Source: an uncultured Flavobacteriales bacterium
Lineage (GTDB): Bacteria; Bacteroidota; Bacteroidia; Flavobacteriales_E; Vicingaceae
DNA length: 64,000 nucleotides
Reading direction: 5' to 3'
Assembly: GCA_905479995.1 (NCBI GenBank)
Contig: CAJQON010000040.1
Location: forward strand, 1-64,000
Each line of letters opens with the position of its first letter. Positions within the stretch are counted from its first letter, which is position 1. The notes beneath the pieces are model-generated. The model did no database searches and was not told the DNA's origin. It was given only the letters and a program-made list of their open reading frames with translations. A program made the position numbers and the translations under genes. This document shows, in pieces, positions 56,102 to 64,000 of this stretch.

Positions 56102-56836
56102 ATGAATTTTAAAAACATACCACCAGTTGTAAAAAACCTGTTAATTATTAATGGGCTATTTTATTTGGCTACCATCATGCTTAAAAATCAAGGAATTGAT
56201 TTAAATGAGTTGTTGGGATTGCACTACTGGAAAAGCGAAGGTTTTTATCCGCACCAAATAGTAACTTACATGTTTATGCACAGTTCGGTAGATTTTACTC
56301 ATGTGCTCTTTAACATGTTTGCAGTTTTTATGTTTGGTAGAACCTTAGAACAAGTATGGGGATCGAAGCGATTTTTAATTTATTACATGATTACTGGAGT
56401 TGGTGCAGGAATAATACAATTGCTGGTGACTCACTTTAGGTTAGAGATGTTATATAGTGCTATTCCAGCTGAGGCTTTGGAATTAATTATAAAAGAAGGA
56501 TATGATGTTATTGCCAATGGACAAAACTATAGTGATGCTACTATGGGATCAATTAATGGCATGTTAAATGGCGCAACAGTTGGGGCTTCAGGTGCTGTTT
56601 TTGGAATTTTATTGGCTTTTGGAGTCTTGTTTCCCAATACCGAGTTAATGTTAATGTTTCCTCCAATACCAATTAAAGCCAAGTGGTTTGTTTTGGGATA
56701 TGGAGCAATAGAATTATACATGGGTTTTGCCAATAATCCTAATGATAATGTAGCACATTTTGCTCACTTAGGAGGAATGCTTTTTGGGTTTATTTTATTA
56801 CAAAAATGGAAAAAAGACAGAGGTAATTTTTATTAG
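56102..56836 (+). CDS. Rhomboid family intramembrane serine protease
   Basis: FMHSSVDFTHVLFNMFAVFMFGRTLE, GASGAVFGIL, FAHLGGMLFG. Confidence 0.93.
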   Translation: MNFKNIPPVVKNLLIINGLFYLATIMLKNQGIDLNELLGLHYWKSEGFYPHQIVTYMFMHSSVDFTHVLFNMFAVFMFGRTLEQVWGSKRFLIYYMITGVGAGIIQLLVTHFRLEMLYSAIPAEALELIIKEGYDVIANGQNYSDATMGSINGMLNGATVGASGAVFGILLAFGVLFPNTELMLMFPPIPIKAKWFVLGYGAIELYMGFANNPNDNVAHFAHLGGMLFGFILLQKWKKDRGNFY

Positions 56837-56846
56837 GTAATTTGTT

Positions 56847-56889
56847 GTCAGTTCGAGTGATTCGACTTTAGGAGAATTGTATGGAGAAC
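56847..56889 (+). repeat. Family B hairpin repeat, copy U1 (degenerate)
   Basis: GTCAGTTCGAGTGATTCGACTTTAGGAGAATTGTATGGAGAAC. Confidence 0.7.
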
Positions 56890-56914: not shown

Positions 56915-56975
56915 AACCTGTTGAGTTCTCGATACATTTTGAATGAAGGATTCAAAATACTCGAACAGACAGGTT
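56915..56975 (-). repeat. Family B hairpin repeat, copy U2, inverted relative to U1
   Basis: AACCTGTTGAGTTCTCGATACATTTTGAATGAAGGATTCAAAATACTCGAACAGACAGGTT; outer arms AACCTGT/ACAGGTT, inner ATTTTGAAT/ATTCAAAAT. Confidence 0.88.
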
Positions 56976-57030: not shown

Positions 57031-57088
57031 CTTGTTGTCAGTTCGAGTGATCCCGATTTTCTCGGGATTGTATCGAGAACAAAACAAG
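57031..57088 (+). repeat. Family B hairpin repeat, copy U3, 2 nt before GIY-YIG ATG
   Basis: CTTGTTGTCAGTTCGAGTGATCCCGATTTTCTCGGGATTGTATCGAGAACAAAACAAG; outer CTTGTT/AACAAG, inner ATCCCGA/TCGGGAT. Confidence 0.9.
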
Positions 57089-57090
57089 AA

Positions 57091-57390
57091 ATGAATAAAC
57101 ACCACATATATTATGTTTATATTTTACAATGTAATGATTCTACATATTATACAGGAGTTACCAATAATGTAGAAAGAAGATTACTAGAGCATCAAACAGG
57201 AGTGGATAAAACTTCTTATACGTTTAAAAGAAGGCCTGTTGAATTGGTTTTTTACGCTGAGTACTCTAATGTTGAAGTAGCCATTGAAAAAGAAAAACAG
57301 TTAAAGAAGTGGGGTAAGAAAAAGAAAGAGGCATTAATTAATGGGGAGTATGATTTGTTGCCCAATTTGGCTAAAAAGAAATTTAAGTAG
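57091..57390 (+). CDS. Single-domain GIY-YIG endonuclease
   Basis: YYVYILQCNDSTYYTGVTNNVERRLLEHQTG ... VAIEKEKQLKKW; catalytic Tyr, Arg, Glu positions intact. Confidence 0.93.
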   Translation: MNKHHIYYVYILQCNDSTYYTGVTNNVERRLLEHQTGVDKTSYTFKRRPVELVFYAEYSNVEVAIEKEKQLKKWGKKKKEALINGEYDLLPNLAKKKFK

Positions 57391-57392
57391 TG

Positions 57393-57453
57393 AATTTGTT
57401 GAGTTCTCGATACATTTTGAATGAAAAATTCAAAACACTCGAACAGACAAATT
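57393..57453 (-). repeat. Family B hairpin repeat, copy U4, 2 nt after GIY-YIG stop
   Basis: AATTTGTTGAGTTCTCGATACATTTTGAATGAAAAATTCAAAACACTCGAACAGACAAATT; outer AATTTGT/ACAAATT, inner TTTTGAAT/ATTCAAAA. Confidence 0.9.
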
Positions 57454-57501
57454 TTAAAAAGGAGTATAGAATAAATAAAAGCGTATATTTTGTTGTCAGT
57501 T
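57450..57501 (+). repeat. 52-bp direct repeat, copy 1 (partner 57538-57589)
   Basis: AATTTTAAAAAGGAGTATAGAATAAATAAAAGCGTATATTTTGTTGTCAGTT; one mismatch to partner. Confidence 0.9.
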
Positions 57502-57537
57502 TGGATGTTCTAAAAAATTCAAAATACTCGAACGGGC
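57495..57537. repeat. Chimeric/degenerate family B unit U5
   Basis: GTCAGTTTGGATGTTCTAAAAAATTCAAAATACTCGAACGGGC: left end of plus-type, right end of minus-type. Confidence 0.6.
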
Positions 57538-57589
57538 AATTTTAAAAAGAAGTATAGAATAAATAAAAGCGTATATTTTGTTGTCAGTT
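57538..57589 (+). repeat. 52-bp direct repeat, copy 2
   Basis: AATTTTAAAAAGAAGTATAGAATAAATAAAAGCGTATATTTTGTTGTCAGTT, offset 88 bp from copy 1. Confidence 0.9.
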
Positions 57590-57633
57590 CGAGTATTCCG
57601 AAGAATTCGGAATGTATCGAGAACAAAACAAAA
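57576..57633 (+). repeat. Family B hairpin repeat, copy U6
   Basis: TTTTGTTGTCAGTTCGAGTATTCCGAAGAATTCGGAATGTATCGAGAACAAAACAAAA; inner ATTCCGAA/TTCGGAAT, outer TTTTGTT/AACAAAA. Confidence 0.88.
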
Positions 57634-57646
57634 CATTAATAAAAAT

Positions 57647-58573
57647 ATGAGTAGCAATCCTTTCATAGCAGATATTAAAAACCAATACAAAAATGGTTCA
57701 GCATTAATTAAGCTAATTATAGTGAATGTGGCCGTGTTTCTTGTTATTAATATACTTCACATCTTATTTCTGTTTTTAGATGTAAAAGAGATGTTTGTAT
57801 TTTTCCCTGATGGTCAACGCTTATTTAAACCAGCCTTGTGGCTTTCAGCTACTTCCGATTTTGGGGAGATAATATACAAGCCATGGTCAATATTGACCTA
57901 CATGTTTTTACATGAAGATCTTTTTCACATATTTTTTAATATGTTAATGTTGTATTTTTCTACAAAACTATTTGTCCAATATTTAAATGAAAAGAAATTA
58001 GTAGCACTTTACTTTCTTGGAGGACTAGCTGGATTAATCTTTTACATGATTGTGTTTAACCTGTTTCCCTATTTTAATGCTTCGGTTGGCAGCCCAATCA
58101 TGGGCGCATCAGCTGCCGTTACATGTATTCTTGTTGCTGTGGCTACATATGTTCCAAATGTGTTGGTTAGACTTATTTTGATTGGGGAAGTGAAACTTAA
58201 ATATATTGTTATTTGCTTAATCCTTATGGATATAATTGGTTTAAGGCAAGGAGTAAATGAAGGTGGTTATTTGGCTCATCTTGGTGGTGCATTGTTTGGG
58301 TTCTTGTACATTCAACAACTTAAAAAAGGAAGAGATTTTTCGGTAAGCTTTATTCGTTTTTTAGCCATGCTAAAATCAATGTTTAAACCTAAAAAGAAGA
58401 TGAAAGTGGTCTATAAAAAAACCGCAAAAACCAAATCAGACTATGTTTATAATGAACAAAAAAAGGCCAATCAACAACAGGTAGATGCCATCTTAGATAA
58501 AATTTCTAAATCAGGTTACGATAGTTTGTCAGGTGATGAAAAGGCTATATTGTTTGATGCCAGCAAAAAGTAA
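57647..58573 (+). CDS. Rhomboid family intramembrane serine protease (second)
   Basis: MFLHEDLFHIFFNMLMLYFSTKL, PIMGASAAVTC, YLAHLGGALFGF; start re-placed at ATG 57647 because the first 23 codons of the track ORF read through repeat U6. Confidence 0.9.
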   Translation: MSSNPFIADIKNQYKNGSALIKLIIVNVAVFLVINILHILFLFLDVKEMFVFFPDGQRLFKPALWLSATSDFGEIIYKPWSILTYMFLHEDLFHIFFNMLMLYFSTKLFVQYLNEKKLVALYFLGGLAGLIFYMIVFNLFPYFNASVGSPIMGASAAVTCILVAVATYVPNVLVRLILIGEVKLKYIVICLILMDIIGLRQGVNEGGYLAHLGGALFGFLYIQQLKKGRDFSVSFIRFLAMLKSMFKPKKKMKVVYKKTAKTKSDYVYNEQKKANQQQVDAILDKISKSGYDSLSGDEKAILFDASKK

Positions 58574-62565: not shown

Positions 62566-62598
62566 ATTTAATAAAGAATTGAGAAAGTTCATTGTGCG

Positions 62599-62642
62599 GT
62601 CAGTTCGAGTGATTTCGTTTTTCTCGGGATTGTATCGAGAAC
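62599..62642 (+). repeat. Family B hairpin repeat, copy U7
   Basis: GTCAGTTCGAGTGATTTCGTTTTTCTCGGGATTGTATCGAGAAC. Confidence 0.85.
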
Positions 62643-62724
62643 TTGTTGAAAGTAAGCAAAATGTTGTTTACCCGTTGCTTTTAATTATATGTATTTCAGA
62701 TAGAATTGGTGAATATTACAATAG

Positions 62725-62781
62725 AACCTGTTGAGTTCTCGATACATTCCGAATTCTTCGAAATACTCGAACGGACAGATT
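62725..62781 (-). repeat. Family B hairpin repeat, copy U8, inverted relative to U7
   Basis: AACCTGTTGAGTTCTCGATACATTCCGAATTCTTCGAAATACTCGAACGGACAGATT. Confidence 0.85.
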
Positions 62782-62951
62782 CTATTTTATCCAAAAAGTA
62801 TTTTTTGTACTCTTTTCTTGATTTAACAGCCAATAATATTGTTTTGTGCAAGTTTTGTGCAAGTGGTTTTTTTTGGGTGTTAGTGGCTTTCCTTTAGTTT
62901 TGGAGCGTATTATTTCAATACACTATTATAAATCATAAATAATTAACTATA

Positions 62952-64000
62952 ATGAAAAGTTTAAACTCAATTAAGTATTCTATGCTCATAGCAATTTATT
63001 CTTTGCTAAGTTTTGTAAATATAAACAGAGCCAATGCCCAAGATTTTAATTTAGTTAATAAAGTAGTGGCTTCTGATAGGGGGGGAGATGACCAATTTGG
63101 TGTAGCTGTTGCCATATCCGACAATTATGCCATAGTGGGTGCATATAATGAAGATGGCATTGGTTTGGATTCTATTCATAATGCTGGTGCAGCATACATT
63201 TATACTAAAAGTGCTAGTGGTGCTTGGGTTGAAATGCAAAAACTAGTGGCATCTGATAGAGATTCTATTGATGCATATTTTGGAGCTGCTGTTGCAATTT
63301 CTGGTAATTATGCCATTGTAGGGTCTTACGGAGATGGGGATACTATTGGAGCTAGTAATACAACTTATTTACAACATGCTGGTTCTGCTTATATCTTTGA
63401 AAGAAATACAGCTACTGGGATATGGGAAGAAAAACAAAAGATAGTAGCCATTGATAGACAGTTTAGAGCACGTTTTGGATATGCTGTTGCAATTTCTAAA
63501 AACTTTGCTGTTGTTGGTGCGAAAGATTTTGGACCGGGAGGTGCTGCATATGTATTTGAAAGAGGGTCATCTGGCTGGGGGAATACTCAAAAAATAACAT
63601 CGAACTCAAGCCAATCAGGTGACCTATTTGGTACTTCGGTAGCAATATATGGCAACCATATAGCTGTAGGATCTCCTGAGGATGATATCTTATTAAAGGA
63701 TAGGGCTGGTTCTGCATACGTTTTTGAACAAGATGGAAGCGGAATATGGAATGAAACTCAAAAAATAGTCCCTTCAGATAGTGATACAAATAGCTATTTT
63801 GGCTTTTCAGTATCAATTTCCGATAGTTCGCTTTTGGTAGGAGCGTATAACGAAGATTTTGCGGATACTTCAGGAAATAATTACATAGAAAATGCTGGTG
63901 CTGCTTATGTATTTGAGAAGACAAATGGTATTTGGCAACAACAGCAAAAAATAGTGGCCTCTGATCGATTAAAAGATGATCATTTTGGTTGGTCAGTTTC
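62952..64000 (+). CDS. Secreted FG-GAP repeat (integrin-alpha-like beta-propeller) protein, 3'-truncated by window end
   Basis: Translated by eye from ATG 62952: signal peptide then repeats such as KVVASDRGGDDQFGVAVAISDNYAIVGAYNEDG...AGAAYIYTKSASGAWVEMQKLVASDR; open to window end, hence absent from ORF track. Confidence 0.9.
   Translation, partial: MKSLNSIKYSMLIAIYSLLSFVNINRANAQDFNLVNKVVASDRGGDDQFGVAVAISDNYAIVGAYNEDGIGLDSIHNAGAAYIYTKSASGAWVEMQKLVASDRDSIDAYFGAAVAISGNYAIVGSYGDGDTIGASNTTYLQHAGSAYIFERNTATGIWEEKQKIVAIDRQFRARFGYAVAISKNFAVVGAKDFGPGGAAYVFERGSSGWGNTQKITSNSSQSGDLFGTSVAIYGNHIAVGSPEDDILLKDRAGSAYVFEQDGSGIWNETQKIVPSDSDTNSYFGFSVSISDSSLLVGAYNEDFADTSGNNYIENAGAAYVFEKTNGIWQQQQKIVASDRLKDDHFGWSV

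Follow-up and report, generated by a model that had tools for sequence, protein, structure and literature searches.

The window, that is, the whole stretch of DNA analysed (64,000 nucleotides; G000:C40:1-64000), belongs to a 3.10-Mb source genome that is 98% complete. Between two rhomboid genes it carries a cassette in which a small GIY-YIG nuclease gene is enclosed by two hairpins, U3 and U4, with further hairpin copies on either side (table 1), matched at 56847(+), 56925(-), 57582(+), 62599(+) and 62735(-). Gaps of 2 nt separate the end of U3 from the ATG and the stop codon from the start of U4, and the TGTC tags of the two hairpins both point outward, giving a head-to-head pair. The coordinates, gaps and opposite orientation given in the original prediction were all correct on checking against the sequence, and the catalytic positions that it described as kept (Y10, Y20, R30 and E68) were present in the alignment. 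The nearest solved structures were those of the UPF0213 proteins 1zg2 and 1ywl, both spanning the GIY-YIG domain of the window protein, followed by SLX1. U3 and U4 had folding energies of −10.5 kcal/mol (z −2.6 versus shuffles) and −10.0 kcal/mol (z −2.9), respectively. U5 had no good hairpin fold and appears to be a scar-like remnant of a collapsed hairpin pair. The window hairpin had no match in Rfam, the PADLOC search returned no defence family, and the window protein was without a model in NCBIfam. Elsewhere in the window (63090-63841), a 50-nt coding repeat occurs five times at a spacing of 153-195 nt, probably within a repeat-domain protein.

Table 1. Positions of genes and hairpin copies in the window.
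Feature	Position	Strand	Evidence or remark
Rhomboid gene 1, left flank of insertion region	56102..56836	+	
U1, degenerate hairpin copy; gene-less inverted pair together with U2	56847..56889	+	
U2, hairpin copy	56915..56972	-	fold z −3.9
U3, upstream hairpin: TGTCAGTTCGAG - apical stem - TATCGAGAAC	57031..57088	+	sequence, fold, repeat family D8
GIY-YIG nuclease gene, 99 aa, single domain (ATG at 57091, stop codon 57388-57390)	57091..57390	+	PF01541 match, E 3e-17
U4, downstream hairpin, inverted relative to U3	57393..57453	-	sequence, fold, repeat family D8
U5, composite of a + hairpin (left half) and a - hairpin (right half)	57488..57545	.	alignments to U6 and U4
U6, hairpin copy	57576..57632	+	fold z −4.2
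Rhomboid gene 2, right flank	57648..58573	+	start = first ATG of frame 57578-58573
Gene-less head-to-head pair, left arm	62593..62650	+	
Gene-less head-to-head pair, right arm	62725..62785	-	

With a relaxed pattern of the window hairpin (TTCGAGN{4,36}TCGAGAAC), about 24 places were matched in the source genome and none with the reversed pattern. These copies are mostly gene-less and several form head-to-head pairs, including pairs on contig C1 with a 23-nt gap and tags pointing outward; the spacer of gene-less head-to-head pairs is 20-24 nt, and the only gene found between the arms of any hairpin pair was the GIY-YIG gene. Close hairpin pairs in relatives were head-to-head (+-) in 9 of 13 cases. 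One region of contig C1 (L218, G000:C1:34900-37600) contains two near-identical head-to-head pairs approximately 1 kb apart, the right flanking sequence being duplicated as well. Across genomes, at least five window-type hairpins were present in all seven genomes with a close homologue of the protein (at least 140 bits) and in 5 of the 52 others (Fisher p 2e-6), a correlation between hairpin number and nuclease gene that had been anticipated. The generic pattern TGTCA...GAG...TCGA occurred 1052 times, against 57 for the reversed control, and its count tracked the number of GIY genes (rho 0.37, p 0.004; rho 0.83 within genus), with G005, G033, G035, G045 and G056 as exceptions to the trend of abundance. 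G056 also contains a tandem hairpin array (C20:3249-3770), in which five TGTCACTTCGAG hairpins follow one another in one orientation at 120-nt spacing.

For comparison across loci, GIY-YIG genes were collected from 60 relatives, from a scan of GTDB contigs (mainly Bacteroidota, and also Caldithrix, Nitrospinota, Nitrospirota, Brocadia and Peribacteria) and from further sites in relatives. A strict motif (stem4-GAG-N-CGA-stem4′, counted within 200 nt of the gene) was found near 119 of 175 distinct GIY genes (68%), and on both sides of 69 (39%). The same motif stood at 3.4% per flank and on both sides in 0.46% of 862 control ORFs from the same contigs; for shuffled flanks, the values were 1.4% and 0. 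An independent inverted-repeat score calculated for 78 genes agreed with this result (median 19 versus 10.5, p 3e-18). The link between GIY-YIG genes and palindromes is thus confirmed, and it reaches far beyond the window, to relatives of the enzyme in many bacterial phyla. Tag orientation around the genes was mixed, with 29% outward (up+/down-) and 14% inward (up-/down+). Homologues without a recognisable palindrome, whose routine occurrence the original prediction had named as evidence against itself, made up about 26-32% (a quarter to a third) of those sampled, and are otherwise routine only in other clades, for example operonic YazA/UPF0213. On the protein tree the palindrome trait required 17 changes, compared with 48 for shuffled labels, and is therefore clade-bound; palindromes were absent at operonic YazA genes (L214, L215) and at the loci of Cupriavidus (L153) and Sphingomonas paeninsulae (L217).

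Palindromes moved by RAYTs or other transposases could also come to lie near small intergenic genes by chance, a reading favoured by the abundance and intergenic position of REPs and by the Y1_Tnp genes carried by several relatives. It is considered highly improbable and is already largely refuted, given flanking on both sides of 0.46% of same-contig control ORFs against 39% of GIY genes, the presence of the strict motif at 0 of 19 IS200-like (Y1) transposase genes of relatives, stems that are specific to each paralogue (see below), and hairpins in the source genome, G004 and G009, in all of which Y1_Tnp was not detected. With no match to PF01797 (Y1_Tnp/RAYT) detected in the source genome, RAYTs are not needed there, and a RAYT was rejected as the mobiliser for this genome.

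Window-type palindromes combine a constant foot (GTTCGAGT...TATCGAGAAC) with an apical stem that is hypervariable but paired. Over 74 distinct copies, taken from the source genome and from relatives, apical arms had 6.77 of 8 matches with their own partner and 4.39 (sd 0.13) with swapped arms; structure rather than apical sequence is therefore conserved. The internal loop was analysed by counting all 256 dinucleotide combinations in stem4-d1-Y...Y′-d2-stem4′ elements in the flanks of the 175 GIY genes. GA/GA was the most enriched of these (280/700 versus 500/11006) and, taken with TC/TC, which is the same element read from the other strand, was the sole non-Watson-Crick type among the top 14. 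The palindrome families share a strict architecture, stem-GAG...CGA-stem′, with a conserved tandem G·A mismatch, and the retention of this mismatch across families points to recognition of a folded single strand. In most of 130 elements the 5′ foot consisted of GTCA followed by a family-specific stem, the types including GTCAGTTC, GTCAGGCT, GTCACTTC, GTCAGTCT, GTCACCCT, GTCATCCT, GTCATTCC and others.

The stem sequence follows the protein. GIY-YIG paralogues had been expected to be flanked by the window hairpins; they are flanked by palindromes, but each by its own type, and the proposal that all of them carry the window's hairpin was rejected. Over 8158 pairs, after removal of those that were flank-similar or syntenic and with the host tree not modelled, protein distance was correlated with foot distance (Mantel rho 0.34, 0/500 permutations); when the 4-nt stem was taken by itself, rho was 0.22, against a null maximum of 0.09. 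Elements with a GTCA-like tag were preferred when one was picked for each gene, to the same degree in the real and the permuted data. Repeat families driven by the host would give paralogues of the same genome one palindrome type, whereas the type differed in 32 of 33 same-genome pairs, which argues that the stem follows the protein and not the host. Epilithonimonas bovis and Epilithonimonas caeni show the same pairing, GTCAGTCT going with one clade of nucleases and GTCAGGCT with the other.

Co-variation of stem and protein is also what would be expected of a nuclease and its target, and the GIY-YIG gene might accordingly be a homing-type parasite that cuts between head-to-head arms and has its own gene copied into the gap, the palindromes being spread by another agent. 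The position of the gene inside an inverted pair is in keeping with this, as are the weak scores against group I intron endonucleases of two paralogues, L002 and L004, and GIY-YIG homing endonucleases share with the window system the catalytic domain and a mobile gene with a cognate DNA site. They differ in that the system described here has no intron and no separate DNA-binding domain, and in that its bracketing repeats also exist gene-less in many copies. A parasite of this kind is judged unlikely, because hairpin number tracks the gene, because no RAYT that might spread the repeats was detected in the source genome, and because the cassette of Aeromonas caviae KAM479 stands alone, the only two matches to the repeat pattern in 4.94 Mb both flanking its GIY gene and leaving no other exact copies to home into.

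Filled and empty orthologous sites, the latter looked for in relatives as originally proposed, were found at three loci, in the rhomboid, sufB-sufC and fnrL regions. The rhomboid genes adjoin directly without a cassette in G003 and are separated by a few to about 30 nt in G013, G001 and G016; at this position G008 carries a GIY cassette of 72% identity, complete with hairpins, and G012 and G002 carry pairs that are gene-less and belong to other palindrome types. In Azospirillum strain 4B, the gap between sufB and sufC is occupied by a REP dimer, a GIY gene and a second REP dimer, and the site is empty of REP and GIY in A. ramasamyi (96.5% identical flanks), A. oryzae and B510. At a Sphingobium site, REP-GIY-REP was present in seven strains, a single palindrome in TomTYG64 and TomTYG74, and none in TomTYG72. 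In the TomTYG64 palindrome, the left half matches that of the left-hand repeat and the right half that of the right-hand repeat, which is what a deletion between the repeats would leave, and U5 is built alike. Such single half-half palindromes (L265 in TomTYG74, L267 in TomTYG64, and U5), of which the Sphingobium ones lie where relatives hold the full cassette, are possible excision scars, judging from their composition. No target-site duplication was found.

The cassettes between murG and murC are vertically retained in Chryseobacterium, where this one orthologue set is under purifying selection (median dN/dS 0.09) with both hairpins kept, indicating that selection acts on some activity of the enzyme, be it the enzyme's own spread or a domesticated function; the vertical retention looks like maintained function more than active spread. 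A local service of the hairpins to the host or gene (terminator, mRNA stability, autoregulation, or cruciform resolution by the nuclease in genome maintenance), with spread as an incidental effect, would be in keeping with this set. It is nevertheless regarded as improbable in view of the dozens of gene-less copies, the pairs of fixed spacing and the empty orthologous sites, all of them features of mobile DNA. By eye, genes like those of the murG-murC site were also read around GIY-YIG genes with palindromes at L067, L070-L077, L081, L093 and L016, in Chryseobacterium, Epilithonimonas and G057, which belongs to another family; the recurrence may reflect either old vertical retention or a recurrent site.

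The system was compared with REP/RAYT elements (REPtrons) and REPINs. RAYTs bind single-stranded REPs and cleave at GTAG (PMC3733652). As in a REPtron, a small enzyme gene is flanked by inverted tagged palindromes, many copies are gene-less, head-to-head pairs have the make-up of non-autonomous units, enzyme and repeat families co-vary, and the hairpin has a conserved non-Watson-Crick site. The enzyme is, however, a 99-aa GIY-YIG nuclease instead of a HUH Y1 tyrosine transposase, and the tag is TGTC, CGTC or CCTC instead of GTAG. The RAYT parallel drawn in the original prediction thus holds for layout, cognacy, gene-less pairs and polymorphism and fails for homology (PF01541, not PF01797) and tag; the GIY-YIG system works like REP/RAYT and is not a member of that family.

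CGTC REPs, which include Neisseria dRS3 and Rickettsia RPE-4/RPE-6, were published in 2013 as repeats without a dedicated transposase, the survey having found no enzyme for them and suggested its possible loss; they carry the tag CGTC, TGTC or CCTC, form mainly head-to-head dimers, and range over taxa that include Alphaproteobacteria and Bacteroidetes (Di Nocera et al., PMC3733652). That paper does not mention GIY-YIG, and no paper joining GIY-YIG with REP, RAYT or CGTC repeats was found in the open-licence literature. A tblastn search with the L004 protein gave matches in species on the Di Nocera list. Repeats with CGTC, TGTC or CCTC tags lie on both sides of GIY genes in Sinorhizobium, Shinella, Azospirillum lipoferum, Novosphingobium aromaticivorans, Sphingobium, Rhizobium CIAT894, Aeromonas and Neisseria (where the repeat is dRS3), so that GIY-flanking CGTC REPs are present in Alpha-, Beta- and Gammaproteobacteria; CCTC-type repeats are on both sides of a Methylobacterium GIY gene, TGTC-type repeats flank GIY genes in Planktothrix and Spirosoma, and Rhizobium K1/93 and Photobacterium are exceptions. 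The published form, with an 8-9 bp stem beginning with AT pairs, a 4-5 nt loop and a CCA tail (PMC3733652), was seen at the Azospirillum, Shinella, Neisseria and Aeromonas loci. The window family shares with it the tag class (TGTC in the window, CGTC and CCTC in proteobacterial loci) and the predominance of head-to-head pairs, both among close pairs and around genes, and differs in its GTTC/GAAC foot, its longer, variable apical stem and the lack of a CCA tail. Alphaproteobacteria were sampled through plasmid records, and a tag-hairpin scan of plasmid loci also gave hits (18/84) in windows more than 250 nt away; under stricter settings, hairpins were found on both sides in only 8 of 16 loci. 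Both figures are put down to the clustering of REPs in the plasmid loci and to types that fall outside the scan, and the case for Proteobacteria therefore rests on the inverted pairs and the empty sites, not on the scan count. On Planktothrix agardhii plasmid p1 (L259), a GIY-YIG gene with TGTCATTCTGAG palindromes lies between the gene for an MmeI-type restriction enzyme and drmA of a DISARM system.

The genomic tests were mostly favourable to the original reading and support it, with binding and nicking of the hairpin as its hypothetical chemistry. What the data establish is that gene and palindrome are associated and cognate in sequence, that hairpin structure is conserved, that cassettes are polymorphic for presence, and that one orthologue set is under purifying selection. 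It is likely that the 423-bp unit is an autonomous REP-like mobile element composed of a small GIY-YIG nuclease and its own cognate palindrome. Such a palindrome is made up of one of the tags TGTC, CGTC and CCTC, a short stem specific to its family, in most cases a tandem G·A mismatch, and an apical stem that varies. It may fold out where the DNA is single-stranded, the lagging-strand template being one example. We infer that the nuclease would recognise the stem and mismatch of the folded palindrome and, by analogy with RAYTs, nick head-to-head pairs at their outer ends, close to the tag, after which host replication and repair could copy the freed segment or rejoin it at another site. GIY-YIG enzymes hydrolyse DNA without a covalent intermediate and leave a 3′-OH, so that strand transfer and joining would have to fall to the host. 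Pairs enclosing the gene would be autonomous and gene-less head-to-head pairs non-autonomous, the counterpart of REPINs, and the superfamily would take in the proteobacterial CGTC REPs.

On the best reading of these data, REPs with CGTC/TGTC tags are mobilised by GIY-YIG nucleases cognate to them. Bacterial palindromic repeats fall into two large classes, and the GIY-YIG nuclease would then probably be the enzyme, missing for so long, by which one of these is spread. With somewhat less assurance than for the window unit itself, we favour the wider view that two unrelated enzyme classes create REP-type palindromes and spread them among Bacteria, and that GIY-YIG nucleases are the second of these and account for the CGTC/TGTC half including dRS3, through recognition of hairpins with a tandem G·A mismatch and copying by the host. 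Counted against the explanation given for the window unit were the need for strand transfer by the host, the palindrome-free homologues, the 5 of 52 genomes that are rich in hairpins but have no close homologue, the mixed orientation, the lack of a target-site duplication and the murG-murC retention. Palindromic repeats are among the commonest repeats of bacterial genomes, and their GTAG half has a known enzyme, the RAYT, while the CGTC half had none in the 2013 survey; there is a fair chance that the present system is this missing half of the REP field. If so, dRS3 of Neisseria, the rickettsial and alphaproteobacterial REPs and the common TGTCA...TCGA repeats of Bacteroidota would share one cause, REP-type elements would have arisen twice with unrelated enzymes, a 99-aa nuclease without transposase chemistry could sustain a mobile element, and enzyme/substrate pairs would be testable in laboratory strains.

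Single-domain GIY-YIG proteins of the UPF0213/YazA type (1zg2, 1ywl) have the same domain and size as the window protein. YazA differs in being encoded in an operon with overlapping genes and without palindromes, whereas the window cassette is polymorphic at the rhomboid locus and flanked by repeats. A GIY-YIG gene of a different clade occurs at L212 (G023:C9:905000-911500) in a ten-copy tandem array with a 457-bp period and copies 99% alike, each unit comprising the gene and a repeated tRNA 3′ end and the array adjoining a tRNA-like sequence; the arrangement resembles that of a tRNA-targeted GIY-YIG element which amplifies by a route of its own.
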